DNA from: Kalaharituber pfeilii
Taxonomy: Eukaryota; Ascomycota; Pezizomycetes; Pezizales; Pezizaceae
Direction: 5' to 3'
Assembly: GCA_015179045.1 (NCBI GenBank)
Contig: WHUZ01000097.1
Coordinates: 1-64,000 of the forward strand
DNA: 64,000 nucleotides
Made by a program: the position numbers and the translations under genes. Positions 639 to 28,783 of the stretch are shown in pieces. Position 1 is the stretch's first letter. Each line of letters begins with the position of its first letter. The notes beneath the pieces were generated by a model that had not been told where the DNA came from, ran no database searches, and worked only from the letters and a program-made list of their open reading frames with translations.

Positions 639-1198
639 TCATCTCCGTCCTCTTTCAGTCTCGTACTGACACGCCTTGAGCCATTTCCCCCCGAGTCGCA
701 CCTTGTCCTTGTCTAATTCTTCCTCCAAGTATACCACTATGGAACTTGTCTTCTTCCCCTCTCCGACCAGTATGTCTTTCTTTCTTAGCCATCTGATACC
801 AGTGATCTTTGGCAAGTCTATATTGTCCCTGCCTTGGCGAGCAGCCGCACGCGGGGTCATGTGATATTTAAAAAAAAAAAAAAAAAGTCTATATTGTCCT
901 CGGACAGCCATCTTCTGACGTTGCCCAGTTCCCTTCTCAAGGCAACGCCATGTATGACTAGTCCGACTTTGGCTTTCGTTGTCGGCGGGGTCGGCGGGGT
1001 AATCTTTTGGGTGTCTTTTGGCAGGGTGCTACGGGGTTGTGGCGTTGGGGTGGCTGGGGCTGGTGTCGGAGCCGGAGCCGTGGGGGTGGGGTGGCTGGGG
1101 CTGATGCCGGGGCCGGGGTGGGTGCTGGGGTGCCAGCTGATTTCGGGACCGGGGAAGGTGTCGTCTTTCCTTGTCTTGTCTTCCTCTTCCTCCTTGTG
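639..1198 (-). pseudogene. ORF1 C-terminal fragment, interrupted
   Basis: The minus-strand frame ends at 639 (...QYETERGRR stop). Reading inward it shows RLGGKWLK, KKTSSIVVYLEEE and TGIRWLRKKD. After the 829-884 insertion it continues as VRRWLSEDNID and VGLVIHGVALRREL. The residues DNID appear on both sides of the small insertion because its target duplication encodes them. Upstream is a Pro/Thr-rich linker cut off at 1198 by 5' truncation. Only the RRM-like half survives. Confidence 0.75.
829..884 (+). mobile_element. Hairpin-only micro-retroposon, tail class B
   Basis: 56 bp made of one hairpin (CTGCC...GCGGGG), the linker GTCATGTGATATTT and about 16 A. Target duplication AAGTCTATATTGTCC lies at 814-828 and 885-899 (15 bp). 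The 5' end sits at the base of the hairpin. It splits an ORF1 fragment, so insertion was by retroposition into existing sequence. Confidence 0.85.
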
Positions 1199-1824
1199 GT
1201 CACGAGGTTGGAGACGCCCCTGGCAGACACACCTCCGGCACCCCCACACCCCATCCCCACTCGGACAAAGAAGAGAAAGGGGAAGACTCCAGCTCCCAAT
1301 CAACCATACGAGATCAAACGCCAACTCAGCGATGAGGAGGCCAAGAAGATCGCGTCCACGGGAGTACCACCGATGCAGACATCACCGCCGCCATCACCGA
1401 TGCCGGCACCACCGTCACCACCACCGCCAAAACCCTCCACCACCAGAAAGGGCAAGGGAAAGCTTCCGAGCCAAGAGGAGGCCTTCAAGCGCCACATGGC
1501 AACCACCAAGAAGGGCCCCTCTCCCCGCCCCGGGAACACCGCCACCTCTCCACCAACCACTCCCGATGCCACCACCAAAGGAAAAACCGGCATCGTAATA
1601 CACGGGATCGCCCTACGGAAGGACCTAGGGAAGGTCAGACAATGGTTGGAGGCCGCGAACAAGGAATTGGGAAAGATATCGGGGATTCGCTGGCTGAGGA
1701 AGAGGACCACGCTGGTTGAGGAGGGGAAGAAAACCAGCTCGGCGGTTGTATACTTGGAAAAGGAGACGGATGTTGAGAGGGTGAGGCTCGGGGGACGTTG
1801 GCTCAGATCGGTCCGGTACGAGTC

Positions 1825-2025
1825 TTTTTTTTTTTTTTTTTATTTCATTACTCGCATGCCGCCCTAAGGGCTATGGCGAGGTATAAATAAACTAGTTAAT
1901 TACAGGTATAACGAATAAAATAAATGCTAATAATCACTCCTGCCCTGCCCATTCCAGTATCTCCCCGATGTTCGTATCCTTGTCTGGTTGTCTTAATCCT
2001 CCCGCTCCGTCTTTCATCTTTCCCT
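1825..2025 (-). mobile_element. Short retroposon (3' UTR only), tail class A
   Basis: 201-bp insertion: T-run, class A hairpin (plus-strand ACTCGCATGCCGCCC...GGCGAG), then about 150 bp of 3' UTR. Target duplication TCCGGTACGAGTC lies at 1812-1824 and 2026-2038 (13 bp, exact). It falls in the last codons of the ORF1 frame. Confidence 0.87.
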
Positions 2026-2226
2026 TCCGGTACGAGTCGGAGAGGGGACGGAAGTAGGAGATACCGGGACCGGGACTGCCACCCGCATCATGGAGAAGTT
2101 TCGCGGGCACTACATGTAGTTAGGAGTAGATAGTTTGGGGTTCGACTTCTTTTTTCACTTTTAATAAAACCTCGCCATAACCCTTTGGGCGGCATGCGAG
2201 TATTGATATAAAAAAAAATAAAAAAA

Positions 2227-2326
2227 TTCTATTTTCTGTACTTGTACTTTGTTTTGATGTAACTAGATCTCGCCATAGCCCATAGGGCGGCACGCGAGTA
2301 TTGATATAAAAAAAAAAGAAAAAAAA
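2227..2326 (+). mobile_element. Second class A tail placed in tandem after the first
   Basis: About 65 bp of 3' UTR, the hairpin CTCGCC...GCGAG, the linker TATTGATAT and a broken poly(A). It follows directly on the poly(A) of the preceding element. Most likely a second insertion into the A-tract; A-rich flanks hide any target duplication. Confidence 0.65.
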
Positions 2327-5189
2327 GTCCACATTCTAGTAGCTTCTTCATATATAACAGCGTCACATGATATGTCTGCCGATTCGCGAACGGGCCTGGC
2401 CGGTTCGCAAACTAAAAAATGTTCATCGGTGGGCCAGAACATAATTTAGGACCTCCTTATCAATATACAGTAGCATCAACACCTTGGTTGAAAATGGGAG
2501 GTGTCTGTATCTCTACAGAAGTTGAGAAGAGCTGCGGATGGTAGCATGGACAAGCAGTGGCTCATGGGAGTGAAGAAACTTGACCACACCATTTTTTTTT
2601 TTTTTTTTTTAATTCACGTAACCCCGCATACAGGCTACCAGCCTATGGCAGGGACCCATATACCCGGGCCAGGTTTGAGACAACTAACTACGGAATCTAC
2701 ATACACCCTTGAGCACCCAGTGCCCTCCGTCCCCCGGTCCCCGGCTACCCCAGATCGAGGCAGGTAAACCAATACTCGACCGGGTCACCTTCCACGCCTT
2801 CTTGCTTCCATCCTTTCTCCTCTAGGTCCTTCCAGGACTGCCAGGTGACATGTGCCCCATTTTTGTTCTTCCTCTGGGGCCGCTCCAGTTCTGTGCATCT
2901 GAACACCACATGCTCAGCACTCCATGCCTCACCACATGTGCATTGTACCTCCTCGCCACTGACCATCCTCCTCCACATAGCTCCGCCTTTTCCAGTCCGC
3001 AGCCAAGTGTAATTTGTGAGTGCTCTCCTGCCCCACTTTACGAATTTGCCCTTCCCAAACCCTGCACGCTCCCTCTCCTCTTTTCTTTTTCGAACTAACT
3101 CTTGACGCAGCCCACCCTCAGTGGCCTGCCCATCATACCTCATGCCCTTGGCCCCATCTTTGGCCAACTCATCCGCCTTCTCATTGCCTTCTATCCCCAC
3201 GTGGGCTTTGACCCATGCCAGCTGCACTGCATCCGCCTTCCTTAGCCTCCGCCGCCTCTCTGCAATCAGCTCTATCACCCGCGCTAGGTCTGCGGTTCTT
3301 GCCTTGCCAGTTTTTCCTGCTTTCTGGACTGCACTGATAGCTGCCTGAGAATCTGCGAGTAGTAGTACTTTTGCACTGCCATCAACTGCTTCAAGGGCAC
3401 CCCTCATTCCTGAGACCTCACCGTCCCACACAGTTGCCTTTGTGCCTACCCACCGGGACCCCTCTGACTCACCTGCTACCACCTGCCTCCAGCACCATCC
3501 GCCACCAACACCGCCTTCCTCACTGCGGCTGCCGTCTGTAAAAATAGCCACCGAGTCACCCTTAGCCCCATTGATGGCCTTTTCCCATTTGGCTGGGGCG
3601 TCTTCCTTGCACAACTTGAGGTCAATGACCTCAATGCCTGTCTGTGGTAGGTGTACATCTCGCCCCCAGGACACTCTCTCCTCCTCGTTGACCTCGAGAG
3701 TGCTGGCAATCTTTCCAGCTACTGACTCAAACCCATCATTTTTGTCTGTAGCATAACTCAAGCTAAAGTCTCTCCAGTCCCTCCCCCTTTCACCCTCTCT
3801 GTCTGGGTCTGGGGCTACCATTCCAGTGAAGCTTTCCGGCCATAAATCTCCGACTCCTGTAGGGTCCCTCACTGATCTTAGTGCATATCTTGCTTGGCCT
3901 TGATCGAGAATCGTCGTTACACTCTCTACTCCAGCAATGGCCTCAATCTTTACTCTCGCTGCCCCTCGGACTGCACCAGTGCATTTGCGAAGTGCTTGAT
4001 ACTGCAACTTCTCAAACTCCTCTCTCCACTGCTTCTGGCCTCTCCACCCAATTTCGGATCCCCAAAGGGCCACTGCCCTTACCATGCCTGTATAAGCCTT
4101 TCTCCATGAGATAGGACTCATACCCCATTGAGAGTTGCCTAGCCCAGACAGCGCGCCCATGAGTTTCCTGGCTTTCTCGATCCGGCTTTTCCAGTGGAGG
4201 TCGAAATCAAGAGTGCTATCACAAATCACCCCTATCCACTTGCACCTCTCAACATCTGCCCTTCTCTTGGCCTTCTTACCCATGACTAGGACCTCCTCCT
4301 TTGAGGTCTCCAGTGGTAGATCGTGAGCTTCAGCAACCTCCCTGAGTACTCCTGCAATTCTCTCCCCAATTCTCCTCATATCCTTTCCTCCTTCCCAATC
4401 CAGAATAACACAGTTCATATCATCTACAAATGAGGGCAGCTCCACTTCCCAGTCTCTCACTGTTGTAGCTACCTTTGTTTCCATCTCTTCTAGAATTGGT
4501 GCCATGTATATGAGGAACACAACTGGGGATAAAGGCGAGCCCTGCGGCACACCTACATTCGATCTGCCATTGCCCCTCACCTGTCCATCCCATTCCACCT
4601 CAAACTCTCGCTCCCGGAAGAAGGTTTCTAAACCAGGGCAACCATTTCTCAGCTTTAGAACCCTGCACTCGGTGCTTGACCATATCCCAACGTGTGTTCC
4701 CAAAGCCTCCCTTGACATCCTCCATAATCCACACTGCCCCACCGCCACGTGCCAGGGCTCTCTGGCTCTTTACAACTGCCCGGAATAAGGCATCAATTGC
4801 AGACCTTCCTCTCACCCCTCCAAACTGCCCATGGTGGAATAGTCCAGCTTCTTGCAAGTCATCAGCAACCACCTTCTCCATCAGTTTTCCCACACAATTG
4901 ATGAGTTGAATAGGCCTCCAGCTCTTTGCTTGCGTAAGATCCCTGCCAGACTTCGGGATCATGATCACCTTGCTGAATTGCCAATCCTTCGGCATCCTGG
5001 CTGCAGCCAGCTCAGCAGCCAGCTCCTTCATTAACTGCCCTCCTAGCACTGTTTTGTTGACCAGCTTGATGAATCTATAGCTGATACCATCAGGCCCTGG
5101 AGCTGAACGGCTCGAGGTGCCTGCAAGTGCCTTGCATAGCCTCTCAGTCAGCTTTTTTACATTGGAGGTCCATTCGTCTGTCAGGCTCT

Positions 5190-5450
5190 GCAGGCCCGAG
5201 TTCACTGGTAGGTCCAATGTTGTCAGGGAAATTGATGCCGCCTGTAAATTCGACGCCGCCAGCGAATTCGACACTACTGGTGAATTCGGCACTGCCGGCG
5301 AATTCGACACCGCTCGCGAATTCGATGCCGCTGGCGAATTCGATACCGCCGGCAAATTTGGATTTGACATTGCCGGTGAATTTGATACTGCCAGTGAAGT
5401 TAATGCCGCTGGGGAGGTTGACACTGCTGGCGGGTCCGACGTCGCCTGAT
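5190..5450 (-). repeat. In-frame 18-bp minisatellite inside LINE ORF2
   Basis: Imperfect 18-bp units (plus-strand GAATTCGACACCGCTGGC type) repeat about 14 times. On the coding strand they give hexapeptides of the SNSPAA/SNSPAV kind between endonuclease and RT. Unit length is a multiple of three, so copy-number change keeps the frame. Confidence 0.8.
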
Positions 5451-6439
5451 ATTTGAAGTTTCTCTGTACCAGGCCTCTCACCTTCTCCTCGTCTGTCCTC
5501 CATATCTCACCATTGTCACCTACAAGGTCACCCATTTTTCCTCTTAACTTCCAAGGGTCCTTTGCTACTCGGATCACATCCCATGGGTCCTTAGAGCTGT
5601 TTTCCTCTGTAAACTGTTCCCAGCACTCCTTTTTCTTTCGTCTTATGATATACTTGAGGGTCTTAACCCGCTCTTTCCACCGTAGGAGTCTGGCTCTCTC
5701 CCATGCTTTGGCTCCCTGTCCCTTCCCCCCTCGGCCCTCCTTCCTCACTGCCTTCGCTGCCTCTTCTACCTCCTTATCCCACCACAACTTACTTCTTGAT
5801 GATGCACGTATCTCCCTCTTCAGACTCTCTCGAAGCTTGCAGGTCTTCTCATATGCAGTCCCTCCTTCAAGGCTTCGGTACCACTCCCATTGTTCTGAAG
5901 CCTTCTTTTGCATGATTTCTTGGATCAAATCTTCTGCCTTATCCCAATCCACTCCTGTTCTTATTGCAGTTTTGCCTTGGTTGCTACTACAAGTCCCCCA
6001 GACTACTGCATGGTCTCCACATAACCACCCTGGATCTTCGTTTTGCCATCCAAATTCCCCATACTTCCAGACTAGATCTAGAACACTCTCTCTGACCTGC
6101 CCTTCAACTTCTCTTGCCCATGTTGAAACCCATTTTCTTGTTTCCAGAAGCCACCCTGTGCCTTCCAAACCCTCTTTGAGTGCCCTTCCCCTTGGGTCAG
6201 GCCCTCTGTCTAGTTTGGACCATGCTGGATGGTGTGCATTAAAGTCCCCCAGTAGTACTGTGCTAGACTGCAGGCCTCCTGGGCCTCTCAGCCTTCCCCA
6301 TCTGTCCATCCAATCCTCCAAGGTCTCCAAATTCGTATCTGGATGGATATATACTCCTCCCGCTCTGCCACCTCCTTCTACCTCACACCAGACCGACCCT
6401 TTCGTCTCTTCAATCACTTTCCACTCCTGGGTCCCTTTC

Positions 6440-7166
6440 TGTCACGACCCGATGCCTGCATCGCCGCACTCAGGGTAACGGTTACCGGCTACCGCTCGAT
6501 CGCTGAACTTCCATGATAAGCCGGCTGCCGAACCACCAAGAGAGGCCGGTTACTGATCGTCCGCTAGATGTGAAAAGTCTGCTTTCGCCGCGCGTCCTTG
6601 TTGCGCGTCCTTGTTGTGAAAATTCTGTGTTTCGCCGCCATGTCTTTGCTTCTTGGCTACAGGGCCCACCATGTATATAAGGGCCCAATATGGCCGCTGT
6701 GGTGACGACGACGTAATGGGTTAATGCAAGCTTGGCGTGGATAAGGTAGCACGTGGAGATAAGGGCAGCACGTGAGGCAATATCGTATATATAGATTTCC
6801 TGTACTCTAGCACACACAATGAACAACCTTCTTCTCTTCTCTTCTTTTCGCACTCGCACTCGCACTCGCATTTGGTCGTACGTTCGTTCCGCCAGTTCTC
6901 ACCGCTCCGGTCCATCGCAAGGCAGTAGTTGATACTATCTGTCTATCTTACACCGCCTTGTAGATAGTTCTTTCCTTCCTCATCTGTTGTCTTGTCAATC
7001 AACGATCCGCCTGGCCTGAGTCCATGACACCTCCGAACTCCTGAACTGTGACACCTCTGAACTCCTGAACCGTGACACCTCTGAACTCCTGAACCTTGAC
7101 ACCTCCAAAATCGCTAGAATCCGCTAGAACGTATCCCTTGGTCGTCTAGACAGCCCGCTTGTGATA
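6440..7166 (+). mobile_element. Solo LTR (727 bp) in LINE ORF2
   Basis: Ends are TGTCACGACC...CTTGTGATA, an imperfect TGTCAC/GTGATA inverted pair. Target duplication CTTTC lies at 6435-6439 and 7167-7171. Contains a TATA-like GTATATATAG near 6786 and three copies of a 23-bp direct repeat (TGACACCTCTGAACTCCTG type) at about 7022-7100. Joining the flanks through one CTTTC copy restores the endonuclease reading frame. Orientation is set from the TATA box only. Confidence 0.82.
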
Positions 7167-11890: not shown

Positions 11891-11946
11891 CTGAACGGTG
11901 TATATCGCTGGTGGACTTAAAAGGTCCGTTCCACCTGCCCTGCGAT

Positions 11947-12045
11947 TAAGCCTGTCTCCAGGCTTTGAGGGCTTGCCCAGGGACCCTGCCATGGCTTGGC
12001 GCTGCAAGCGGGGTTACGTGAAAAAAAAAAAAAAAAAAAAAAAAA
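11947..12045 (+). mobile_element. Short retroposon (99 bp), tail class B
   Basis: Contains the longer B-type 3' module (CCTGTCTCCAGGC...CCAGGGACCCTGCC), the hairpin, GTTACGTG and about 26 A. Target duplication ACCTGCCCTGCGAT lies at 11933-11946 and 12046-12059 (14 bp, exact). Confidence 0.88.
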
Positions 12046-12059
12046 ACCTGCCCTGCGAT

Positions 12060-12420: not shown

Positions 12421-12471
12421 AGCTGCAAGCGGGGTTATGTGATATGAAAAAAAAAAAAAAAAAAAAAAAAA
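12421..12471 (+). mobile_element. Sub-hairpin class B fragment with poly(A)
   Basis: Only AGCTGCAAGCGGGG, TTATGTGATATG and about 24 A. It starts inside the hairpin loop, shorter than the other micro-copies, and no target duplication is clear. Confidence 0.6.
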
Positions 12472-12984: not shown

Positions 12985-13425
12985 GCCTTTAATGTAGCTG
13001 TTTTTTCCTGTTGCCGGAGGGGTCCTTTATGAAGCTGTTTTTTTTTTTTCGCCGAAGGGGTCTATGAAGCTGTTTTTCCTGTCGCCGGAGGGGGTCATTC
13101 ATGAAGCTGTATTTTTTTTTTGCCCTGTTGCCGGAGGGGCCCTTGATGAAGCTGATTTTTCCTGTCGCTGGAGGGGTCCTTGGTAAAGCTGTTATATCCT
13201 GTCGCTGGGGGTCCTTGATGAAGCTTTTTTTTCCTGTCGCTGGAGGGGTCCTTGCTGCTGCTGCTGTTTTTTTTTTTTTTTTTTCGCCGGAGACGGTCCT
13301 TGATGAAGCTGTTTTTTCCTGTCGCTGGAGGGGTCCTTGGTAGAGCTCTTTTTTGCTGTCGGAGGAGTTCTTTGTTGGAGCTGTTTTTTCCTGTCGCTGG
13401 AGGGGTCCTTGCTGCTGCTGGGTGT
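12985..13425. repeat. Minisatellite, unit about 37 bp, roughly 12 copies
   Basis: Degenerate units of the form GAAGCTGTTTTTTCCTGTCG CTGGAGGGGTCCTTGAT vary in T-run length and in an inserted CTG triplet. Open frames here (Gln/Arg/Lys-rich on the minus strand) are by-products of the repeat. Confidence 0.8.
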
Positions 13426-13637
13426 TGATCCGGGGTCCTGGTCGTCGTGCCAGGCCAGGCTGGCCTGTCCGGTTGCAGGGGAGTTTACAGGGCACAATAT
13501 CGTATCTGCAGGGGGCTGTACGGTGTCTACAGGGGACTGCATAAGCCTTCAGATCACATGCCAGACTCAAATTGTATGTATGTCTTCTGTAAAACCAATT
13601 CTTGGCTCATACCTCACTCATACCTCTACCAATCCAT

Positions 13638-13690
13638 TTTTTTTTCTTTATTTCATTACTCGCGTGCCGCCTTATAGGCTATGGCGAGGA
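13638..13690 (-). mobile_element. Hairpin-only micro-retroposon, tail class A (53 bp)
   Basis: T-run, linker, then hairpin with inner stem GCCT/AGGC in place of GCCC/GGGC. Target duplication ACCAATCCAT lies at 13628-13637 and 13691-13700. The 5' end is two bases beyond the hairpin base. Confidence 0.85.
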
Positions 13691-13784: not shown

Positions 13785-13845
13785 TTTTTTTTTTTTTTTT
13801 TATTTCACATGACCCCGCGTGCGGCTGCTCGCCAAGGCAGGGCGA
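13785..13845 (-). mobile_element. Hairpin-only micro-retroposon, tail class B (61 bp)
   Basis: T16, ATTTCACATGAC linker and hairpin CCCCGC...GCAGGG. Target duplication CACCACTTCAT lies at 13774-13784 and 13846-13856 (11 bp, exact). Confidence 0.87.
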
Positions 13846-14373: not shown

Positions 14374-14434
14374 GCCCTGCCATGGTGAAGAGCTGCACGC
14401 GGGGTCACGTGATGAAAAAAAAAAAAAAAAAAAA
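14374..14434 (+). mobile_element. Hairpin-only micro-retroposon, tail class B (about 61 bp)
   Basis: Starts exactly at CCCTGCC, hairpin to GCGGGG, GTCACGTGATG, about 20 A. Flanks GGTTACTTGT (left, from 14363) and GGTCACTTGT (right, from 14435) agree at 9 of 10 bases. Confidence 0.8.
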
Positions 14435-14487: not shown

Positions 14488-14638
14488 TTTTTTTTTTTTT
14501 TTTTTATATCAATACTCGCTTGCCGCCCTAAGGGCTATGGCGAGGGTTTTTATTAAAAAACTCCAAAAAAGAACGAAAGAAGTAAGCAACTTTAAATAAC
14601 ATGATTCCCGCGGTTTACATAGTGTCACCCCCCTCCCC
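14488..14638 (-). mobile_element. Short retroposon (151 bp), tail class A
   Basis: T-run, hairpin CTCGCC...GGCAAGCGAG type, then about 100 bp of 3' UTR. Target duplication CCTCCAAAGACTTA lies at 14474-14487 and 14639-14652 (14 bp, exact). Confidence 0.88.
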
Positions 14639-16737: not shown

Positions 16738-17767
16738 CTACTTCCGTCCCCTGTCCCAATCGTATTGGCTAGTCTTCAACCATTTTCCTTCAAGTCTCAC
16801 CTTATCCAGCCTTACCTGACCCTCCAGGTATACCACAACCGAGCTGGCGGTCTTGCCTTCCCCGGTCAAAATTGTCTCCTTACTCAGCCACCGAATCCCC
16901 GCAATCTTTCCCAAGTCTTTATTCGATGCCTCCAACCATTTCTGGACATTGTTCAGGTCCTTCCGGAGTGCTATTCCAGGCCATTTTTCGTCCTGGTGAT
17001 GCCGGTCGGAGTTTTCGCCGGGCGGGTGGTGGAAGTGGTGGAAATGGGTGTCGGGGTGGTGCTGACACTGGGCGCCGCGAGGTTTTCAGCTGTCGGGGGG
17101 GGTGTAGGTGTTTCTGCGCTGGACGCCGCGATCTTTTCCGCCTCTCTGGCATCTGACGACGTTTGATGGCGTACTTGTCTTGTGGTGCCGCTGTCTTGCC
17201 CTTGCGTTTCTTGGACGCGGCGGGGCGGGTGGTGTGGGGGCGGGTGGGGCGGGTGGGGTGGGCGGTTGTGCGGGGCTCTCCGGGGATGGCTCCTCCGAAG
17301 ACACAGTGTGGTTTTTTTTTTTTTTTTTTTTATAGCAATACTCGCTTGCCGCCCTAAGGGCTATGGCGAGACACAGTGTGGATGGGGCTAAATCCCTGGG
17401 GTGGTGGTGGTGGTGGTGGGGGGGGGGGGCGGTGGGGATGGGTGGCAAGCCAGTTTGGGAGGGGGCCGTCTGGGAATAACCCACTCACCAGCAAGGCGCG
17501 TCCTTTGTCGAATTTTATTAATAGCATCGAACCTTCCGTCGGGGCGCGGTCAGTTCCTGCCATAAGTTTCCACAGTGAGGCGAGTACCACACTCATCCGA
17601 TACCCGCCTCTTTTCTCATCGTCCCCGTCACGGTCTCCCATTGTGGTGTATGGACCCCGTCCCAGCCTCGAGGGAGCGGTGGGGGGAAGTCGGGGGGGGA
17701 GGAGGCGGTGGGGAGGCGGCCTCCCGTGAGGGGAGACGGTCCTTTGTTTCTTTTTTCCGTTAGGCAT
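16738..17767 (-). pseudogene. ORF1 protein remnant, frameshifted and interrupted
   Basis: N-terminal part starts MPNGKKKQRT at 17767 and runs through MSVVLASLWKLM and a poly-Pro tract to the insertion at 17312-17369. The frame then gives a Pro/Ala-rich linker. Near 16935-17000 a frame change precedes the RRM-like end (LEASNKDLGKIAGIRWLSKE, SSVVVYLEG, VRLEGKWLK, YDWDRGRK stop at 16738). Confidence 0.65.
17312..17369 (-). mobile_element. Hairpin-only micro-retroposon, tail class A (58 bp)
   Basis: T18, ATAGCAATA linker and hairpin ending GGCGA. Target duplication GACACAGTGTGG lies at 17300-17311 and 17370-17381 (12 bp, exact). The 5' end falls at the hairpin base. Confidence 0.87.
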
Positions 17768-18851: not shown

Positions 18852-20246
18852 TTTTTTTTTTTTTTTTTTATTTCACGTAACCCCGCTTGCAGCTGTTCGC
18901 CATGGCAGGGTCCCTGGACCGAAGTCCTTCTGGCCCGGAGACAGGCACCTGTGCAACTACATACAAAATCATCCCCTGTAAAAACACACAACGATACTAT
19001 GACTTCGGTGATGTGGAGGAAACACAAAGCGAAAGCCCAATCCCCCAAGAGAACAATTAAGCACGAATACTCAAATATCCCCCCAGAGAATCAAGCAGTC
19101 ATATCCATCTCCTCCACATCCCACCCCTTCCCCTTTCTGTCCACCTTTGTCATTCTGTCCCAGTCATACAAGCATGAGTGGTACCATTTGCCTGATAACC
19201 GTACCTTCGCTGGTGTTTGACTATCTGATTCTACCTCCCCCTCCAGGTAGATAACAATCGAGCTAGTCTTCTTTCCCTCCCTCCTTTCTTTTCCCACCAA
19301 CCGTCTTGCCGCAACAATCTTCCCCATCCATGGGTTCGCCTTTTCCATCCACTCTCTTACTTTCCCAAGTTTCTTCGTCACCGCTATGCCATGCACTACA
19401 ACTGCCCGGCCAGATTGCGGGAGCCTTTCTTTCTGGGATGTTCTTGCTTTCGGAGATGATGTTGGAGGCTTCTTGTTCTGCTTGGGGGGTTGGTACTGGA
19501 CCCCCTTACTGCGTTTTTGGATTGAGAAGCGGTGGACCTTGTTCGGTTTTTTGGTGGTGCTGCTGGAGGTGGGTTGGTTTTTTGTGCTGGGGGTGTATTT
19601 GGTGGAATGCTTTGAGACGATTGCTACAAATGACAGCGGAGGTATTGTCTCTAGCTTGGTCTGTGTTTCCCCTTCCTTTTGCCTATAACTTCTCTGTGTG
19701 GCAGCATAGTTCTTGCAACGTTCCCCTTTCGCTGCTGCTGCGAGTAAATCTATGCGCTGGTGTGCGTGTCCGATATAGCCTAGGAACAAGTCTGTTGGCT
19801 CGAAGTTTGGTCTTTTCATAAGGTCTTCTATACATTTCTGGATATGAATAATGATATCTCCCACTGCCTCAAGCATACAAGTCATATTAACTCCACCAAG
19901 TTTTTCAATGATTGACTGAAGCAGTGGGGCCTCGGGACGAGTACTTCTGGCAAGTGTTGTCTTGGCACCCGAAGATGTGTTTTTCGGTGCCGGGCTGCCC
20001 AATGCCGCGAATCGATTGGTTCGATCCATGGTGGAAGTGCCAAGAAGTCAGGGGTAGCAGTGTGCTTGTCAACGGAGCAGGGAGCTGAAATCTCCTCAAA
20101 ACTTAACCCCCAAGGGGGAAACTTGAGGAGTTGGGTTTTTTGGAATAAAAATTAGATCTAAAGACTCAGCGCACTGAGAGCTTTCGATCTATGTAGGTTT
20201 CGCTGGGGGGGACGGAGTGCTCGTCCTGTCGAAGTGGTTGTCGCTG
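18852..20246 (-). mobile_element. Complete ORF1-only retroelement (1395 bp), tail class B
   Basis: Target duplication ACGCTGTATACAAT lies at 18838-18851 and 20247-20260 (14 bp, exact). Minus-strand order: 217-bp 5' UTR with a hairpin-forming block (AAAGaCTCAG...CTGAGagCTTT) and a G-run, one intact ORF, about 240 bp of 3' UTR, B hairpin CCCTGC...GCGGGG, TTACGTGAAAT, poly(A). There is no RT and no space for one. It is the reference copy for the family in this window and resembles in concept the mammalian half-LINEs (HAL1). Confidence 0.87.
19091..20029 (-). CDS. ORF1-type RNA-binding protein, 312 aa, intact
   Basis: ATG at 20029 (MDRTNRFAALGSPAPK), stop at 19091. N-terminal 110 residues look helical (SIIEKLGGVNMTCMLEAVGDI, HAHQRIDLLAAAAKGERC). 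Residues 110-200 are a Lys/Ser/Thr/Pro-rich basic linker. The C-terminus is the RRM-like module: RAVVVHGIAVTKKLGKVREW, KKTSSIVIYLEGE, VRLSGKWYHSCLYDWDR. No zinc knuckle. An unbroken frame in a family otherwise full of lesions suggests recent activity or selection in cis. Expected to coat its own RNA; the RT must come from elsewhere. Confidence 0.8.
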   Translation of the reverse strand: MDRTNRFAALGSPAPKNTSSGAKTTLARSTRPEAPLLQSIIEKLGGVNMTCMLEAVGDIIIHIQKCIEDLMKRPNFEPTDLFLGYIGHAHQRIDLLAAAAKGERCKNYAATQRSYRQKEGETQTKLETIPPLSFVAIVSKHSTKYTPSTKNQPTSSSTTKKPNKVHRFSIQKRSKGVQYQPPKQNKKPPTSSPKARTSQKERLPQSGRAVVVHGIAVTKKLGKVREWMEKANPWMGKIVAARRLVGKERREGKKTSSIVIYLEGEVESDSQTPAKVRLSGKWYHSCLYDWDRMTKVDRKGKGWDVEEMDMTA

Positions 20247-20260
20247 ACGCTGTATACAAT

Positions 20261-21540: not shown

Positions 21541-22245
21541 GTTTTTTTTTTTTTTTTTTATATATCAATACTCGCATGCCGCCCTATGGGCTATGCGGAG
21601 GGTTTTGTTAAAAGGAAAAACAAGATCAACTAGATACATGTGGTACCCGCGGTGTTAGAGATCTACAGTAATGTCGGAGTGTCGGAGGTGTCGGATATCA
21701 GAGAGGTCCGTGATAAAGGGTGGTAAGGGCCCGAGAGCAACCTCATGCTCTATGTATATAGGTGTATTACTTTGGCTACTCTCTCTACGAAGGAACAACA
21801 ATCATCTCTTTCTACCCAAAGCTCAACACGCGGTAATCCTACGTGATGCAGGAGAAAAGAACAATAACGTCCGATCCAGTGTCAGGGAACGTCTTTTGCA
21901 TCTTCGTCCTCTGTTCCACTCGTACTGGCTCCATCTCCCACCTAGTCTCACCCGGTCTGCTTGCGTTGTGTCCTCCAAATACACTACTACCAAACTTGTC
22001 TTCTTGCCTTTCTCCCTCAATGCCGTCTCCTTGATGAGCCATCTGATCCCTGTTATCCTTCCTATGTCATTGTCGGCTTCCATCCATCTCCGAACATTCC
22101 CGAGATTCTTCCTCAGGGCTATTCGGTGGACTACGATGCCAGGCTTGGTGGTGGTGGCACCGGGGGTGGATGGGTGTGTCAGGGGTCTGGCTTTGGTCTG
22201 GGGTGTTTGAGGGGTTTGGGGTTTCGGCTTGAGTCTATTATGATT
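21541..22245 (-). mobile_element. 5'-truncated ORF1 element, tail class A
   Basis: T18, ATATATCAATA, class A hairpin with a GCGGAG change at its base (21575-21602), 3' UTR, ORF1 fragment. The 5' end is about 22245 where the Pro/Thr linker stops. No target duplication was found, so the limits are approximate. Confidence 0.65.
21823..22245 (-). pseudogene. ORF1 C-terminal fragment
   Basis: Minus-strand frame with linker KPKPQTPQTPQTK and the RRM-like module (PGIVVHRIALRKNLGNVRRW, TGIRWLIKET, KKTSLVVVYLED, VRLGGRW, YEWNRGRR). Three residues are missing between GGRW and QYEW compared with relatives. The normal stop is lost, so the frame runs on to 21823. Confidence 0.65.
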
Positions 22246-22359
22246 GTATGTCAAATAGAGCAATTTGAAGTTCAATGAGCTGCGGAAAAATCTCAATACC
22301 GCAACACCCTGCAAACTAACATCATGAGATACTTTCGGTATCCAAACCTCCTTCCAGCG

Positions 22360-22557
22360 ATGCAGGTCAAGCTCTCCACAGCTCTCACCGTGGTTACCCT
22401 CACTATCCTTTCCGCTGGCCATGTTACCACTGTACCCCAAATTACCGTAGCTGCACCCGCGAAGCGCGGGGAATTGGGGATATTATATATACATTTCGAC
22501 TTATCTTGCCCCGTAGTTAGTATTGATTATAGCCTCAAAATCTCTTGGATGACATGA
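22360..22557 (+). CDS. Candidate small secreted protein (66 codons)
   Basis: The frame from ATG 22360 starts MQVKLSTALTVVTLTILSAG, a good-looking signal peptide (basic residue, hydrophobic core, small residues), followed by VTTVPQITVAAPAKRG with a Kex2-like KR. The part after KR is short and unremarkable, so it may be a first exon only. A second ATG at 22324 in the same frame would spoil the signal. No relative is recognised, and it lies between repeats, so chance cannot be excluded. Confidence 0.3.
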   Translation: MQVKLSTALTVVTLTILSAGHVTTVPQITVAAPAKRGELGILYIHFDLSCPVVSIDYSLKISWMT

Positions 22558-22559
22558 AA

Positions 22560-23078: not shown

Positions 23079-23090
23079 TCTGTCAATTTC

Positions 23091-23162
23091 TCCCTGCCAT
23101 AGGCCGGTATCCTGTATGCGGGGTTACGTAACCCCCCCACCAAAAAACAAAAAAACAGAAAT
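23091..23162 (+). mobile_element. Hairpin-only micro-retroposon, tail class C (72 bp)
   Basis: TCCCTGCCATAGGCCGG...CCTGTATGCGGGGTTACGTA then a degraded C/A tract in place of poly(A). Flanks TCTGTCAATTTC (23079-23090) and TCTGCCAATTTC (23163-23174) match at 11 of 12. Older than the others. Confidence 0.72.
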
Positions 23163-23174
23163 TCTGCCAATTTC

Positions 23175-24573
23175 AGGTGATGGCGTGTATCCAAGTCATG
23201 AGGACAGCCCATGCGCCGGACAGGATAATGATCCAATACCTGTCATTGTCAAGTCGCCTGCATTGCTCTTCTCACTCAAGCGGGGCATCATGGCCACAAA
23301 AGGTGTTTGGAATCTAGGCAACTGCGAACGCAGTTAGTTTTGCACGAGTCCTAAACACACATTGAAGCCCCTATGACCACTAGAAGTACCCTCATATGAG
23401 AACTTTATTATCTCAGATATGAAATCTGGGAAAGGTTGCGTTCCTGTACGTCTCAAGGTGGATTTCCGTTGTTTTCAATGAATCCCTAAATAAATCGTAG
23501 GGCCTATTCTCTGGGAAGTTTTGGCCGCCGCCCGCCGGGAGTACATTCCCCAACACGTGCTCCGCACACCAACTCAGGTCTCCATCGTCAACAGGCCTGA
23601 GTCCAGGGGAGATACCAGCCGCATAAATGCTGATATAGCATCTCAACACAAATCCACGATGAGGCGCTCAAAGTCTACTGCCGGACCAAGCACAAGTCCA
23701 CTTGGTACCAGGTCATCAATGCCGCCAGCCAACGAAGCCGGTTGAAATCGCGGTGTGTTGCTGGCGTCATGCGACCATGTAGGGTGCCCGAAAGACACAT
23801 CCACACAATTGAGGCACCAGAAGCGCAAAGCTTTTTTTCGAAAGGAAAAGGTAATGTTATGAGAACAGCTAGTTTCTATTCGACTTTTCAACTATTTTGA
23901 ACCAAGTTTCTCAACACATCGCTACTAAGCTCAGCTTCGATGAGCACTAGTGGAGTCGGCTTGAGAGAGTCAAAAACCTTTTGAAGCTAGGGCACTCGCA
24001 GTAGGGTATGAGTCTACGCTCGCGGCGACAGGTATATACCAGTATGGTAAATTGAAGCGGTGGCCTTATGCAGTCCGAGATCGGGCTGCAATCATTGGAG
24101 AGAGAAGCTGGAAGCACTGCCAAGCCAGGCTCTCCCCAAGTGCACTGGAGGCTTCCGGAGGGCAGGTTCTTGGAGTGGGATGCGTGCGCCGTCACCAACT
24201 ATACCTAGTTGCGGACTGAGAAGGGTGGAAATATGCGGAGGAGGAAGATCAGCAGAGAAGAGGTGTGCTGCACATGCGAGTAGGGGTGGAATGCATCAAG
24301 CAGGAGCGACACAACAGGAAGAAAGTGAGTGGGCAGGCGGTCTCCTGGCAGAGCTGGGAGGCCCTAGTGTATGCCACCACGTAGCGACACCAACCGGTAC
24401 ATTCTATTATGCAACCTGAGGGACAGTAAGAACTGGTCGGACTGTCCTTTGGGACTATCTGGAGATATCCTACTTGTTACCGTGTTGTGTGGCTCACACC
24501 GCAAACAAAGTGTGCACGGTTTCGCCGCTGCACCTTATTCACATAACCAACTCAACACTTGAGAACGGCACGG
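23175..24573. other. 1.4 kb without a recognisable gene or repeat
   Basis: Frames of 60-119 codons (for example 24060-24419) carry no motif. Nothing in it was linked to the surrounding repeats. Confidence 0.4.
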
Positions 24574-24584
24574 ATGGGCCGAAT

Positions 24585-24617
24585 AATCCCTGCCATAGGC
24601 TGGAAGCCTGTATGCGG

Positions 24618-24650
<33 letters not shown>
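24585..24650 (+). mobile_element. Hairpin-only micro-retroposon, tail class C (66 bp)
   Basis: Starts AATCCCTGCC, hairpin CATAGGCTGG AAGCCTGTATG, GCGGGGTT, about 29 A. Flanks ATGGGCCGAAT (24574-24584) and ATAGGCCGAAT (24651-24661) match at 10 of 11. Confidence 0.8.
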
Positions 24651-24909
24651 ATAGGCCGAATATCTTATGTTGTTTCATGGCACACAACCTAACCCTGCTG
24701 CGGCTCTTAGCAGCAGTGCTACGATGCCGCGTAGTTGATTTGTAGGATTTCTGAGTTACGCCGCCGCTCAGCACTTGCACTGGTGCACCACTAGGTGAGA
24801 CCCCCTGTCATACTAACGAATGAGAAGCTGGCCGGACGGAGATGAGCTATGCATCTTGCATGTGCTTCTCCCGTAGCAGTAATGTGATACGAACTACTAG
24901 TGGACGTGT

Positions 24910-24975
24910 TTTTTTTTTGTTTTTTTTTATATCACATGACTCCGCGTGCAGCTGTTCGCCATGGCAGGGCAGTGG
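24910..24975 (-). mobile_element. Hairpin-only micro-retroposon, tail class B (about 66 bp)
   Basis: T-runs broken by one G, ATATCACATGAC, CCGCGTGCAGCTGTTCGCC ATGGCAGGG. The target duplication is weak (AGTGGACG before, AGTGGAGG after). Confidence 0.65.
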
Positions 24976-25917
24976 AGGAGTAAAAATTGGTTGAGAACTC
25001 CATTGTGTGGGTGAAACTTAGATGCTATTGCAATTGGGCGACTCAGAAAAGGCAATCCACTCTACTGAAGACTTCTAAAAGCCATTGAGTGTACAGAGGT
25101 GTGGAAACTCAATCCAATGCATAGCAAATTTCTTCACGCCACTGCCATCGAATTACCAGTGCTTGCAGCCACCCGAGGAAGTGAGTCTTTCAAACCACTG
25201 TACAAGGTCTTCCATGCTTAATTGTCCTCAGTTAGAACGCCTTAAGTATACTCACTGAAACAGAGCTATTGGAGACTTTATCATTCGCAATAAGATTCGG
25301 AATAAAGAGACTACTTGAGACAGCAACTTCGAATTATACTACTATGTACCGATGTATATATGACAGGATTAAAATCGTGACTTTGGGCATCGAGAGCAGG
25401 AAAACTTATGCGAGACATCTATCTCAAATATGAGATATGACATGTCAAAGTCTTTTCATTGGTTACATCATTAAAATTTTTCTATCCTTCCCATCCTCAC
25501 GAAATAGACGGTGTGGACCGCTGGCATGAAATCGGCCCACTGAAGATTGGCCGGAGCGGTCAATAGTAGAATGAATGCCCCGGTTGATGGTGCGGATTCT
25601 GAAGTGACCTTGGCCAGTGGTCCCAGCCGTTTGGAATATTACACTATTGGCCCATGTTGCAATTACTATTTGTAGTTCCAATGTCTATGCACGTTGTGCA
25701 TAACTCATATGTATGTATCTCTTTCTATTATTGTCTTGCATGTAGTTCACGCCTCGAAGCCTGCTATACGAGGCTATGCATTCCGTGACTCCAGACCCCT
25801 TCCCTCATGTTACTGGTGCATCTCTTGCAATCCCCCACTCAGTATACTTTTTAGAAAACATGGCTTTGGGCTTCCAAAGAGATCCGCTATACCGTATCAT
25901 GACACTCATGACCGCTA
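24976..25917. other. 0.9 kb without a recognisable gene or repeat
   Basis: Frames at 25463-25681 (minus) and 25694-25964 (plus) lack motifs. Confidence 0.4.
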
Positions 25918-26045
25918 GTGCCAAGGCCTGCCCGGGAAGGGGATATCCACCCATAGACCTTTAAAGCTGCTAGTGACAATTCGGCCTGATCAACCTATAC
26001 CTACAGTCTGGCAATGAGACATGGGTCGGGCACGGATGTGTACTA
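25918..26045 (+). mobile_element. Decayed LTR fragment related to 8975-9401
   Basis: Shares, in inverse orientation, GGGGATATCCACC, GCTGCTAGTGAC, ATTCGGCCTGATCAACC and the following block with the solo LTR at 8975-9401. Both ends are eroded and no target duplication is visible. Confidence 0.65.
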
Positions 26046-26084
26046 GGATCTGACGGTATGGTCATCAGCCACTGGACGGACCTC

Positions 26085-26160
26085 TAGGAGCAACGCCACC
26101 GAATGGACCTCCAGGAGCAGAGCCACCGGATGGACCTCTAAATGAGGCGAGGCGGTGGCT
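26085..26160. repeat. Three imperfect copies of a 27-bp unit
   Basis: Units of the form GGACCTCYAGGAGCAACGCC ACCGAAT; the minus strand reads as a Gly/Pro/Ser repeat. Confidence 0.6.
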
Positions 26161-26184
26161 GAGGGATATCCTTAGATAGAACGT

Positions 26185-26243
26185 TTTTTTTTTGTTTGTT
26201 TTTGTCACATGACCCCGCATGCGGCTGTTCGCCATGGCAGGGC
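26185..26243 (-). mobile_element. Hairpin-only micro-retroposon, tail class B (59 bp)
   Basis: T/G-interrupted tail, GTCACATGAC, hairpin to GGCAGGGCA. Target duplication TAGATAGAACGT lies at 26173-26184 and 26244-26255 (12 bp, exact). Confidence 0.87.
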
Positions 26244-26255
26244 ATAGATAGAACG

Positions 26256-26835
26256 TCATGTTATCATAGCAAGTTAGACAATAGATGGAAGGCACGCAGG
26301 ATTAACTATAAGAAGGGCCAGCAAGAGCTGCCCTCTCAAAGGTCAAGCACCAAGCATTGTCCTAAGTTACACCCTCATATTTACTACATCATCGTAGAAA
26401 CCGTAACAGCCTGGACCCGACGCACCGGTCGGATACAAGGCCCTTTCAGATCAGGTTTCCGCTCTCTGATACCAGCCAACAAATTTGACATACAAGACAA
26501 CTTAATTCAACTTAATTCAACTTCACAGTACTAAGGTATTCTAACGTTTAAACATCCAGTTTTGGGGATCCGTTTGGAGAATGTATGTTCCATTTTTCCG
26601 TTTGCTATCACCACACCACCACAGGCTTTCTAATCCTGAATGATAGTAGTGTCACAGTTACCACAAAGTTCGCATCGGTACACTCTCGGGTTTACTTTGA
26701 GGAGCCGAGTGTAATAACAAACCTAAGAGACTGTGTAAGGGGATCCGCTTCAAGGAAGTATGCCTGCGACTTACCCCTGGGTGACTGACCTAGACCGTCA
26801 TATCTAACTTTACTCGAAAATGTCTAGTTGCTGAA
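26256..26835. other. Region upstream of the membrane-protein gene
   Basis: No frame with motifs. A direct repeat CAACTTAATT occurs near 26500-26522. It would contain the promoter of the gene at 26836; no clear TATA box was picked out. Confidence 0.4.
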
Positions 26836-28627
26836 ATGGATACTACGGGCTTCACGCGAGAGCATTATCATCTTGCCAAACTTTTCACAATGCCTAGTCC
26901 CTCCGGCGGGAAAAGTGCAATAGCCGTCCCTGCCAAAATGGAGCTGATGATTGTTTCGGCTTATACAATTCTCGTTGGTAGTACTTTCATGGCATGGTGG
27001 ATCATTATTGCTGTAACAATTTCCATAGTTGCATCAAGGAACTTCCGGAAATGTAAAGCCATCAAGCTTGCTGGAGCTTGCGCCATGACGGAGCCATTTC
27101 AAGCTGCCACTGTTGTAGTGGTGTTCTGCTATGATTTGGTTGTGAAAAGATACAGCCAACGCAAAACCGTTCGTACAACCCGACTGTACTCGCAGGATTC
27201 AATGACTCTGCCGGATACGCAATACTGGAGAGAGTTATTCACTGCTTTCACGATATTGCTTCTAGCATTTGGGATCATAGTCGGAGGAATTATCGGTGGA
27301 ATTTATCTTCCTAAAAAGCTTATCATTGGACAAGTGGCACCTGTGAATGACAGGATGGTGTTTACCGCACCTTTCAATTATGGTGGTGATGGTACCAATA
27401 GTAGTGACCCTTTTCGGGTTTTTGTTGTGGTTACCGCGAAGGGCATTGGACGGGCGGTCTCTACGATAGACTCTTCTGGGACGAATCTGGAATCAGAACT
27501 GGAAAAGATTGTGCATGTCGACAAGAAACCGACAAACAATGGACCTAATGGTCAGGACAATTACAACATTACGTATAGCTTTCGTGTCCACAGCTATGAT
27601 ATGGGCTTACAAAATCTACATGGTTTGTCTGTCAGCATTACAGGGAACTGTCACTTTGAGTATGGCTGGTATAAAGAGCAAGGTCATGGCAACGCAACTT
27701 CTCCACTCAGAGATGAGTATATTAGTACCGAGTTTGAGAACAAGATTATCGGGGTCGATGTACAACCCAACAAAGTTGAACCTTTGATACTTCAATACAA
27801 CTGGACTGGAAAAGGTGATTATTCAGAGGGTGTTCCCAAGTTGCCTTTTGCAATAGTACCAAGGACACAAGGGCGAAACTCAATGTCTTCAAGTCTAGAC
27901 CCTTGGTATCTCACGTCACAAAACCAGACTTCGTCACAAAACCAGACTTCGAAAGACTACATTGTACGTCGGGGAAGACCACCACTGCTTTGTACTGAGG
28001 AGCGTGCTTGGTATTATTGGGGGTCATATCTAGGACCAGACCTAGCAGTTTATGATCTGAAGAATTCTACCGCTGGAGAAGTGGAGCGAAAAAAAAAGAT
28101 GGGGTACAAATATTCCAGACATCCCCATTGGGATATGGACCCTCCTCAGTGATCTCTATCCTTGGGGAATCGTTAGCAGCATGTTTCAGTTGCATCAGGG
28201 CGACAAGTTAGAATCTAGTTGGCGCACTAACACTCTGTCCGGCAAGTGTCTTATCGACGGTGAAACTTCCTCAGCGTACAAGGATATAAAGCGTATGGCC
28301 TATGCTGGATACTTGAAATATCGGAATGTTGTGCGGGATGCAGCCCTGGCGTATGTGGGTGTCCAGGAGCTGAAACTATCCCCTCCTTATCCTAATGGCA
28401 TGCGAGGTAAGAACGACAATCCACTTCCTGGCGCAGGAGATTTCGTAGTCCCCAGCGACAAAGTCAGAACCCTCCGTCTCCAGGTCGTGGTTGCTATCCC
28501 AACATTCGCGGCTTTTTCGTGGGCTATAGTTGCAGTTGTTACATTCCAACAGCGGCGCAGGAGCAAAGACCGTTTGGTGTTCATGGGAATTAGGGACTCG
28601 GATCAGGAGCTTTTGCCGCTGCACTAG
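26836..28627 (+). CDS. Multi-pass membrane protein, host gene with a frameshift at an A9 run
   Basis: ATG 26836 opens 438 codons. At the run of nine A (28089-28097) the downstream frame differs by one, and the other frame continues through TLLSDLYPWGIVSSMFQLHQG to a stop at 28625, so gene length is about 595 codons. N-terminal hydrophobic spans lie near residues 35-66, 85-102 and 134-158 (TAFTILLLAFGIIVGGIIGGI), followed by an extracellular-looking domain with many NxS/T sites and one span near the C-terminus (VVVAIPTFAAFSWAIVAVVTF) with an RRRSKDR stop-transfer. The motif LIIGQVAPVNDRMVF and overall plan resemble large uncharacterised fungal membrane proteins; function unknown. No intron is obvious. 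The frameshift could be a pseudogene lesion or a homopolymer base-call error. Confidence 0.75.
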
Positions 28628-28727
28628 CCATTACTAGGGCATATGGAGGCTGCCGGGTTGACAAGCAGGCCAAATAGAGACAGTGGGTAGAGCACGAGGA
28701 CCTGGAACGGTTCTGTCAGTTTGGGTT

Positions 28728-28783
28728 TTTTTTTTTTTTTTATGTCACGTGACCCCGCATGCAGCTGTTCGCCATGGCAGGGC
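28728..28783 (-). mobile_element. Hairpin-only micro-retroposon, tail class B (56 bp)
   Basis: T-run, ATGTCACGTGAC, hairpin to GGCAGGGC. Target duplication GTCAGTTTGGGTT lies at 28715-28727 and 28784-28796 (13 bp, exact). About 100 bp after the membrane-protein stop codon. Confidence 0.88.

Follow-up and report, generated by a model that had tools for sequence, protein, structure and literature searches.

Hairpin-only insertions in the window

The window (the whole 64-kb stretch of DNA analysed here, part of the 78-Mb genome assembly of Kalaharituber pfeilii) contains nine short insertions, each composed of a hairpin of 30-33 nt followed by a linker of about 10 nt and a poly(A) tail. All had been listed, with target duplications, in a reading made from the letters of the window (hereafter the sequence-only reading), and inspection of the nine places on both strands found every one of them. 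The target-site duplications (TSDs) are exact in six cases and carry one mismatch in three; automatic TSD scoring backs eight of the nine, the copy at 23091 lying under the threshold.

The insertions belong to three hairpin families (A, B and C; TSDs are quoted on the element strand). Family B, with a TCA linker, is found at 829..884 (+ strand; an exact 15-bp TSD, AAGTCTATATTGTCC, on both sides), 13785..13845 (-; TGAAGTGGTG), 14374..14434 (+; GGTTACTTGT/GGTCACTTGT, one mismatch), 26185..26243 (-; CGTTCTATCTA) and 28728..28783 (-; CCCAAACTGAC, the element starting at the G of GCCCTGCC). Family A is found at 13638..13690 (-; inner pair of the T-A type; TSD ATGGATTGGT) and at 17312..17369 (-; C-G type), where the final two bases of the 13-bp TSD CCACACTGTGTCT are also the first two of the stem. 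The hairpin-only copies of family C number two, both in the window: 23091..23162 (+; 12-bp TSD TCTGTCAATTTC/TCTGCCAATTTC, one mismatch, recognized by eye) and 24585..24650 (+; 12-bp TSD ATGGGCCGAATA/ATAGGCCGAATA, one mismatch). A probable tenth insertion, of family B, lies at 24909..24970 (-) with a TSD core of 6 bp only (TCCACT), and a family-B copy at 12421..12471 (+), in which no TSD was found, is half a hairpin, beginning where the apical loop ends on its 3' side.

The same 3' hairpins also terminate longer copies. In family B one such tail (11947..12046, +) extends 67 nt to the 3' base of the hairpin and has a 14-bp TSD; in family A two tails with the same hairpin type extend 124 nt (14488..14638, -; 14-bp TSD) and 175 nt (1825..2025, -; 13-bp TSD).

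LINE origin of the hairpins

The three hairpins are the 3' ends of LINEs and LINE-like elements, and the hairpin-only elements therefore depend on LINEs; the sequence-only reading was right about the hairpin-only class and had missed this origin. Some copies of each family have RNase H coding sequence at a distance of 120-210 nt upstream. One example is a LINE copy that covers at least 2592..6441 (-) and ends in a family-C hairpin (tail 2592-2610, hairpin 2622-2653); its two overlapping frames (4600-6441 and 2745-4769) encode endonuclease, reverse transcriptase (RT) and RNase H (Pfam PF14529, PF00078 and PF00075 over 2745-6441), the RNase H lying 126 nt upstream of the 3' base of the hairpin. 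A search listed 77 homologues. The 3' part of a family-B LINE occupies 47876..48848 (-), with an RNase H frame at 48036-48848 and the hairpin and tail at about 47876-47945. The full domain set is seen in family C only, and RNase H is the only LINE domain seen for the other two: in family A it lies 180-209 nt upstream in 2 of 90 regions, and in family B about 120-157 nt upstream in 4 of 42. We take a LINE of this EN-RT-RNase H type to be Tad1-like.

Structure of the hairpin

Among 80 distinct family-A hairpins, two of the nine stem pairs covary: pair 1-30 is C-G in 53, A-T in 14 and T-G in 6, while pair 13-17 is C-G in 55, T-A in 17 and T-G in 5. The CATA and GGCA columns, which do not pair, are conserved. 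Folds and compensatory pairs together thus describe a conserved, covarying 3' hairpin common to several elements, of the kind known from stringent-type LINEs. When three further observed copies were folded, two gave another lowest-energy fold.

A spike of 5' ends at the hairpin base

If hairpin-only elements were simply the short end of a truncation spectrum, then 5' ends should be spread along the element. Two surveys that do not depend on the whole hairpin were used. The first, which ignored the hairpin, was anchored on A-rich tails (nine or more A), sought a TSD within 160 nt, and covered 194 kb (the window plus 130 kb of chosen stretches). The second was anchored on the 3' arm of the hairpin alone, with 5' ends dated by TSD. 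In total 282 kb were examined, a non-random sample comprising the window, the 130 kb, and 30 loci and 20 short stretches that were chosen by means of a 17-mer from the 3' arm of family A.

In the tail-anchored survey a TSD was found near 47 of 137 tails, compared to 11 of 409 control flanks that had been swapped. The lengths of the 47 inserts (without tail) fall into three groups: 20-27 bp (five, of which one is doubtful by eye, being AT-rich or satellite), 34-51 bp (30) and 52-150 bp (12, of which six are doubtful on the same grounds). The peak in the length distribution that had been proposed as a check is therefore present in the 194 kb, with 30 of the 47 inserts at 34-51 bp.

The 3'-arm survey gave 178 copies; ten for which no tail was found were set aside, and 62 of the remaining 168 lack a confident TSD. 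Dated copies longer than about 1 kb, some of whose TSD matches fall in poly(A) stretches, are unsafe. Family A has 77 copies with 5' ends dated by TSD; 22 of them start 28-33 nt away from the 3' base (3.67 per nt), compared to three at 34-63 nt (0.10 per nt), 12 at 64-150 nt (0.14 per nt) and 19 at 151-300 nt (0.13 per nt): the spike stands about 27-fold above background (P about 1e-24 against the density at 34-150 nt). In family B, 20 of 28 dated ends lie at 28-33 nt. The two families are thus alike in their 5' ends despite differing hairpins and upstream sequence. Included in the 77 and 28, and excluded from the 22 and 20, are three copies judged by eye: C1:472805 (family A) and C1:178242 (family B) are hairpin-only elements inserted into an older copy's hairpin and were scored as starting inside the hairpin, and C1:309483 (family A) is a longer copy that adjoins part of a hairpin.

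Genome-wide counts, which may be lower bounds, point the same way: a G is the outermost base in 304 of 316 exact TCA hairpins of family B, and in 156 of these 304 the next base outside is A or T, the next base out being mixed. A conserved G with a mixed base beyond it is what one would see if this G were the end of most elements. An exact 26-mer of one subfamily has 567 matches genome-wide, again possibly a lower bound. We considered whether the G in family B might be an extra base derived from a cap; it is already present in upstream-extended copies (C2:4036; 9 of 100 rows) and so can be templated.

These data bear out the argument that random 5' truncation is insufficient: there is a separate hairpin-only population with a sharp start at the base of the hairpin, and no smooth spectrum. 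The tight 5' limit claimed earlier is real in surveys that did not require the whole hairpin, although it is not absolute, for a few copies begin inside the hairpin. In family A, TSD-supported starts of this kind lie at 10, 15, 16, 16 and 19 nt, roughly at background density; those at 10, 16, 16 and 19 nt come from the 3'-arm survey and that at 15 nt (C2:16213) from the tail-anchored survey. For C2:16213 the 3'-arm survey had favoured a more distant TSD match at 517 nt. Four of the five starts fall at 15-19 nt, which is suggestive of nicking at the apical loop, but five copies are too few to make this a general rule.

Upstream of the spike no further structure is claimed. The three copies at 34-63 nt are about what background predicts, and we claim the spike and not a cold zone beside it; one of the three (C1:88621) sits within a local repeat and probably belongs to the hairpin-only class. 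A second favoured start was considered too, but by eye the 5' ends at 43 to 376 nt look scattered.

Hairpin-only and longer copies compared

In family A, hairpin-only and longer copies have similar TSDs (median 13 versus 14) and tails (20 versus 19), so both seemingly used the same integration machinery. Where family-A copies have 1-3 additional nt beyond the stem, these are mostly LINE-like by eye.

The composition of the two classes differs. Among the family-A copies that could be typed, the T-A type accounts for 9 of 18 that are hairpin-only and for 7 of 72 that are longer or undated (Fisher test, P = 4e-4; typing failed for 4 of 22 and 16 of 88, respectively). The two types also differ in modal 5' end, about 32 nt for T-A and about 29 nt for C-G (9 versus 9; Mann-Whitney P = 0.005). 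The 19 hairpin-only copies with readable loops include 15 loop types, eight of which are absent from readable longer copies. In family B the near-identical B-TCA and B-TTA hairpins have strongly different hairpin-only shares: among the matches listed, a LINE-like AGGG lies upstream in 9 of 100 B-TCA versus 58 of 100 B-TTA. B-TCA-CAY hairpins with the G number 184 (extended ones included), while upstream-extended CAY hairpins with AGGG and any linker number 22, of which several are TCA. Two near-identical hairpins have folding energies of -14.3 and -14.0 kcal/mol.

One further insert (40 bp, 12-bp TSD) is a fragment of the LINE-A 3' UTR that carries a poly(A) of its own, which indicates that a fragment of a LINE transcript can act as template.

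Origin of the hairpin-only elements

The best reading of these data is that a discrete hairpin-poly(A) RNA serves as template, whether it comes from LINE-type transcripts or from an independent micro-SINE. Both explanations offered by the sequence-only reading – a discrete template, or RT stopping at the base of the hairpin – were weighed: the former is favoured, and the latter is disfavoured by the differing hairpin-only shares of near-identical hairpins.

In its most probable form (we would put it at roughly 0.47) the elements would have arisen by target-primed copying of a short hairpin-linker-poly(A) RNA trimmed from LINE-type transcripts. The transcript would be held by LINE proteins through its 3' hairpin, upstream RNA would be trimmed or cut off as far as the hairpin's outer border, 0-3 nt from the stem, and the leftover stub would be copied by RT to its true 5' end, with normal LINE integration yielding duplications of 10-15 bp. 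We infer, then, a short RNA that is trimmed from longer transcripts and protected by LINE protein. Two findings sit awkwardly with this account: starts inside the hairpin mean that the hairpin is not an absolute barrier, and hairpin-only copies do not mirror longer copies in proportion (T-A type, loop types, AGGG upstream of B-TCA). The disproportion among subfamilies fits dedicated sources better than it fits the trimming of every LINE transcript.

Dedicated sources are what an independent micro-SINE would supply: at some source loci the hairpin would be transcribed from a promoter close by, and the resulting RNAs of about 40 nt – the hairpin that RT seemingly recognizes, plus poly(A) – would amplify through the LINE machinery as self-sustaining lineages independent of LINE transcripts. 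We regard this as rather unlikely, while recognizing that it accounts for the subfamily skew in both families A and B, for the eight of 15 hairpin-only loop types unseen on longer copies in the sample, for the different modal 5' ends of the T-A and C-G types, and for the excess of B-TCA-CAY hairpins with the G over upstream-extended CAY hairpins. Against it, a single master or a handful of them would hardly give 15 loop types in 19 copies, all three hairpin families and the B-TCA-CAY subfamily occur on longer copies too, and no source locus came to light in the sample examined.

A stop of RT at the base, with nascent cDNA snapping back once the 5' arm has been copied, would place the end at the base in any family of hairpin, and dissociation of RT is the usual view of 5' truncation (PMC2104539). 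We nonetheless think it improbable, since the 5' base is the side that RT leaves last, starts inside the hairpin are at about background density, and near-identical hairpins of similar folding energy have very unequal hairpin-only shares. Moreover, RT covers the last stretch of the hybrid, so that folding of the product should act some nucleotides past the base, and the 40-bp LINE-fragment insert, whose poly(A) lies upstream of the hairpin, cannot have arisen in this way.

Trimming might instead act on DNA: a host 3'-flap nuclease (the XPF-ERCC1 type is a candidate) would remove the single-stranded cDNA as far as the folded hairpin, and second-strand synthesis would follow. This would explain both the starts at the edge of the stem and the few in the loop, and short overlaps of TSD and stem are seen in several copies; yet such a nuclease should hit the near-identical B-TCA and B-TTA hairpins equally, and we hold it to be improbable too. 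That the class is an artefact of noticing only hairpin-bearing copies is scarcely credible: the sequence-only reading did select by hairpin, but within the 282 kb examined such circularity is contradicted by the peak in both the tail-anchored and the 3'-arm surveys and by the chance TSD rate in swapped flanks.

Truncation of LINEs at the 5' end is usually ascribed to RT falling off or to breakage of the RNA, which are hard to tell apart. The question becomes open to test with a sharp 5' end that is set by structure, that recurs across hairpin families and whose frequency differs between near-identical subfamilies. Should the short RNA be found, then a LINE RT is able to use a 40-nt stub as template, which would set a lower size limit for retroposons and reveal, as a natural footprint, which RNA the LINE protein protects; annotators would be warned as well, since insertions of 40 bp may easily escape repeat finders. 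Micro-SINEs, if real, would be among the smallest retroposons described.

Relation to known retroposons

In searches of open-licence PMC papers, judged by title and abstract, no report came up of hairpin-only LINE insertions or of a spike of 5' ends at a hairpin base. Stringent-type LINEs (UnaL2, ZfL2-1/-2 and Tad1-clade pairs in fungi) resemble the present elements in having a 3'-terminal hairpin right before the tail, here with compensatory changes, but in those systems the hairpin forms the tail either of a LINE or of a SINE that has a body. In zebrafish, the region of ORF2 between EN and RT binds the 3' hairpin (PMC4176376).

The hairpin-only elements share with SINEs a non-autonomous nature, poly(A) tails, TSDs and many dispersed copies, but have no body of their own and no room for a pol III promoter, inserts of 34-51 bp being hairpin plus linker; the 64-kb window contains no tRNA and no Rfam match. 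Fungal LINE-tailed SINEs (Mg-SINE with MGL, SINE2-1_BG with Tad1-24_BG), described in PMC2104539 and PMC3747384, are likewise non-autonomous and use the 3' ends of LINEs; they are listed as tRNA-derived (PMC3747384), whereas the present elements are bodyless and too short for a pol III promoter. Tailless retropseudogenes, which Schmitz et al. (cited in PMC3747384) trace to truncated tRNAs and SINE RNAs, are similar in that very short pieces of RNA act as templates for retroposition; theirs are without poly(A), whereas all copies counted here have it, an A-rich tail being built into the design of the surveys. Ordinary 5'-truncated LINE copies have the same 3' end and similar TSD and tail lengths, but their truncation points are spread, whereas those of the hairpin-only class are concentrated at one place.

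Hairpin families and their LINE origin

The sequence-only reading described nine insertions consisting of a hairpin, a linker and poly(A). All nine are present in the window and were read on both strands: in each, a short linker joins a 30-33-nt hairpin to an A-rich tail, and the insertion is flanked by target site duplications (TSDs) that are exact in six cases and carry one mismatch in three. Eight passed the automatic TSD threshold, while the TSD of 23091-23162 was recognised by eye; 24909-24970 is probably a tenth insertion of this kind. The hairpins belong to three families: A (CTCGCCATAGCCnnnnnGGCGGCAYGCGAG), B ((G)CCCTGCCATGGCGAACAGCTGCANGCGGGG plus loop variants, followed by the linker TCAYGTGA or TTAYGTGA) and C (CCCTGCCATAGGCTGGTAGCCTGTATGCGGGG). 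Neither a tRNA gene nor an Rfam match at gathering score was found in the window. Across the genome assembly (78.0 Mb, 360 contigs) the 17-mer of the family A 3' arm has 3093 exact matches, compared to 0 for the pattern read backwards. Seven hits bear the name Kalaharituber pfeilii, four with 92-98% identity over 31-56% of the query and three with 40-73%, making this desert truffle the probable source of the window.

Upstream of the same hairpins, longer copies run into LINE 3' sequence. One LINE copy (2592-6441, minus strand) ends in the family C hairpin and carries endonuclease (PF14529), reverse transcriptase (RT; PF00078) and RNase H (PF00075) domains, with the coding sequence split across two frames; judging by its domain set, the LINE is probably Tad1-like. 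Protein-to-DNA comparison of the sequence preceding the tailed copies, reaching back at most 2.5 kb, took in 90 A, 42 B and 6 C regions, each of at least 600 nt. RNase H coding sequence ends approximately 120-210 nt before the hairpin 3' base in 2 of the A regions (contig positions C358:31757 and C1:284428), 4 of the B regions (C358:47914, C358:56685, C2:308350 and C2:1010528) and 1 of the C regions. In the same comparison a shared short ORF is instead the frame directly upstream in 13/90 A and 2/42 B regions; in the window it is found at 962-1867 (plus strand), 21823-22482 (minus) and 19091-20047 (minus), the last without a Pfam match. Some carriers of the hairpin are thus LINE-like elements with no visible RT near the tail, as if non-autonomous LINE-like elements carried the short ORF without RT.

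Seven typed variants fold into two stems, an outer one of 5-7 bp and an inner one, with an asymmetric internal loop between them (z-scores -1.2 to -2.5). Among 80 distinct family A hairpins, two of the nine pairs show two-sided changes in many copies: pair 1-30 (C-G 53, A-T 14, T-G 6) and pair 13-17 (C-G 55, T-A 17, T-G 5). The other seven show chiefly one-sided changes and mispairs, and there is conservation in the unpaired columns CATA and GGCA: a pattern such as a protein-recognised RNA hairpin would give. In zebrafish LINEs (PMC4176376), the part of ORF2 between EN and RT binds such a stem-loop, and retroposition requires the stem-loop. When three more observed copies were folded singly, two (17312 and 23091) gave another lowest-energy fold; folding energy by itself is thus weak evidence.

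Distribution of 5' ends and insert lengths

One survey was anchored solely on the hairpin 3' arm, so that 5' starts are visible wherever they fall. The 282,519 bp examined were merged from the window and chosen genome pieces (130 kb of stretches, 30 loci of 3 kb and 20 short stretches) and yielded 178 copies (121 A, 51 B, 6 C), 168 of them tailed; a confident TSD was obtained for 77 A, 28 B and 1 C. Counting from the hairpin 3' base, family A 5' ends fall at <28 nt (6), 28-33 nt (22), 34-63 nt (3), 64-150 nt (12), 151-300 nt (19), 301-700 nt (8) and beyond (7). Two of the six shortest (C1:472805 and C1:309483) are self-matches of nested insertions. The family A density reaches 3.67/nt at the hairpin base but is 0.10-0.14/nt between 34 and 300 nt (P~1e-24 relative to the 34-150 nt interval). 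Family B ends lie at 28-33 nt in 20 cases, with one below (nested), one at 67 nt and six at >700 nt. A spike thus stands out from a flat background of ordinary truncation, bearing out the tight 5' limit noted from the window. Starts within the hairpin exist (10, 15, 16, 16 and 19 nt), at about background density so far as copies so short are detectable. At two loci, L027 (C1:472805) and L006 (C1:178242), hairpin-only elements sit inside older 3'-end hairpins, and the TSD duplicates part of the hairpin.

A further survey, blind to hairpins, took 137 A-rich tails from 194 kb and sought TSDs within 160 nt: 47 tails had one, compared to 11 of 409 controls. Without the tail, inserts measured 20-27 bp in 5 cases, 34-51 bp in 30 and 52-150 bp in 12. 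By eye, 29 of the 30 contain hairpin A, B or C (the TSD of one, C20:102641, is poly(A)-like and doubtful) and one another LINE piece; the window holds 8 of the 30. Of the 90 tails without a nearby TSD, 34 have a hairpin-like end. The sequence-only reading was to fall if lengths across the genome showed no peak at 35-45 bp; this 194-kb sample does have such a peak, at 34-51 bp.

Source of the template

TSD and tail medians in family A are 13 and 20 for hairpin-only copies and 14 and 19 for longer ones: integration of hairpin-only copies looks ordinary, so that it is probably the template in which the choice is made. At locus L034 (C2:310564-310605, minus strand) lies a 40-bp insert that has a 12-bp TSD and carries poly(A) of its own. 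It derives from the LINE-A 3' UTR, approximately 110 nt upstream of the end and upstream of the terminal hairpin; allowing up to two mismatches, the 23-base core of the insert has 34 matches genome-wide. This suggests that a short transcript fragment is able to act as template. The B-TCA and B-TTA subfamilies, named for their linkers, have near-identical hairpins of similar energy and strongly different hairpin-only shares; a difference in template supply need not affect the two alike. We therefore favor a discrete hairpin-poly(A) RNA as template, whatever its origin (probability about 0.77).

Genome-wide, the exact B-TCA hairpin occurs 304 times with an outermost G and 12 times without; the base just outside the G is A or T in 156 of the 304, so conservation largely ends at the G. 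LINE-like AGGG directly precedes 9 among the first 100 of 304 B-TCA hairpins vs 58 among the first 100 of 422 B-TTA hairpins (Fisher P 8e-14), a comparison of listed rows, in which a missing AGGG alone does not prove that a copy is hairpin-only. Among copies dated by TSD, TC follows the stem in 15 of 20 hairpin-only B copies vs 1 of 7 longer ones.

The hairpin-poly(A) RNA may be trimmed from LINE-type transcripts and shielded by bound LINE protein, an origin to which we give nearly even odds. Against it, hairpin-only copies are not a mirror of longer copies: a T-A inner stem is found in 9/18 typed hairpin-only vs 7/72 typed longer or undated A copies, the T-A type starts approximately 3 nt further out than the C-G type, and 8 of the 15 loop types among 19 readable hairpin-only A copies are absent from readable longer copies. 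These differences favor separate sources, as expected of an independent micro-SINE; loop diversity, however, runs contrary to one master gene, and we consider a micro-SINE somewhat less likely than trimming, and on the whole unlikely.

The sequence-only reading had offered a discrete template or an RT stop at the hairpin base; the former is favored and the latter is not. RT reads RNA from the poly(A) toward the 5' side, so that a stop at the 5' base implies that the entire hairpin has already been passed. A stop there would yield hairpin-only copies, but B-TCA and B-TTA should then behave alike, making this explanation improbable. If the cDNA were trimmed at the hairpin, both subfamilies ought likewise to be affected equally, yet their shares are unequal, and such trimming is if anything still harder to credit.

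The nearest known systems are stringent-type LINEs, LINE-tailed fungal SINEs, ordinary truncated LINEs and tailless retropseudogenes; none of the four, as described in the sources consulted, unites a fixed 5' end and poly(A) with a hairpin that has no body. No report of hairpin-only LINE insertions was found in the open PMC literature.

Other features of the window and genome

Approximately 2.3 Mb of one contig (G000:C1:599000-2920000) has no family A 17-mer match among the matches listed, and hairpin tails are almost absent from stretches of C2 (at 1.0 Mb), C300 and C350: the genome seems split into LINE-rich and LINE-poor compartments. In the window, 12989-13606 is a tandem-like repeat around CCCCTCCGGCGACAGGAAAAA with one open minus-strand frame of 205 aa, and the 452-aa frame open at 26794-28152 matches no Pfam family at E 0.001. 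A 1067-aa frame (50719-53922), which by eye resembles a Gypsy-type polyprotein, sits between the two ends of a family B LINE copy (47914 to ~54427) whose ends show a 21-bp TSD match.
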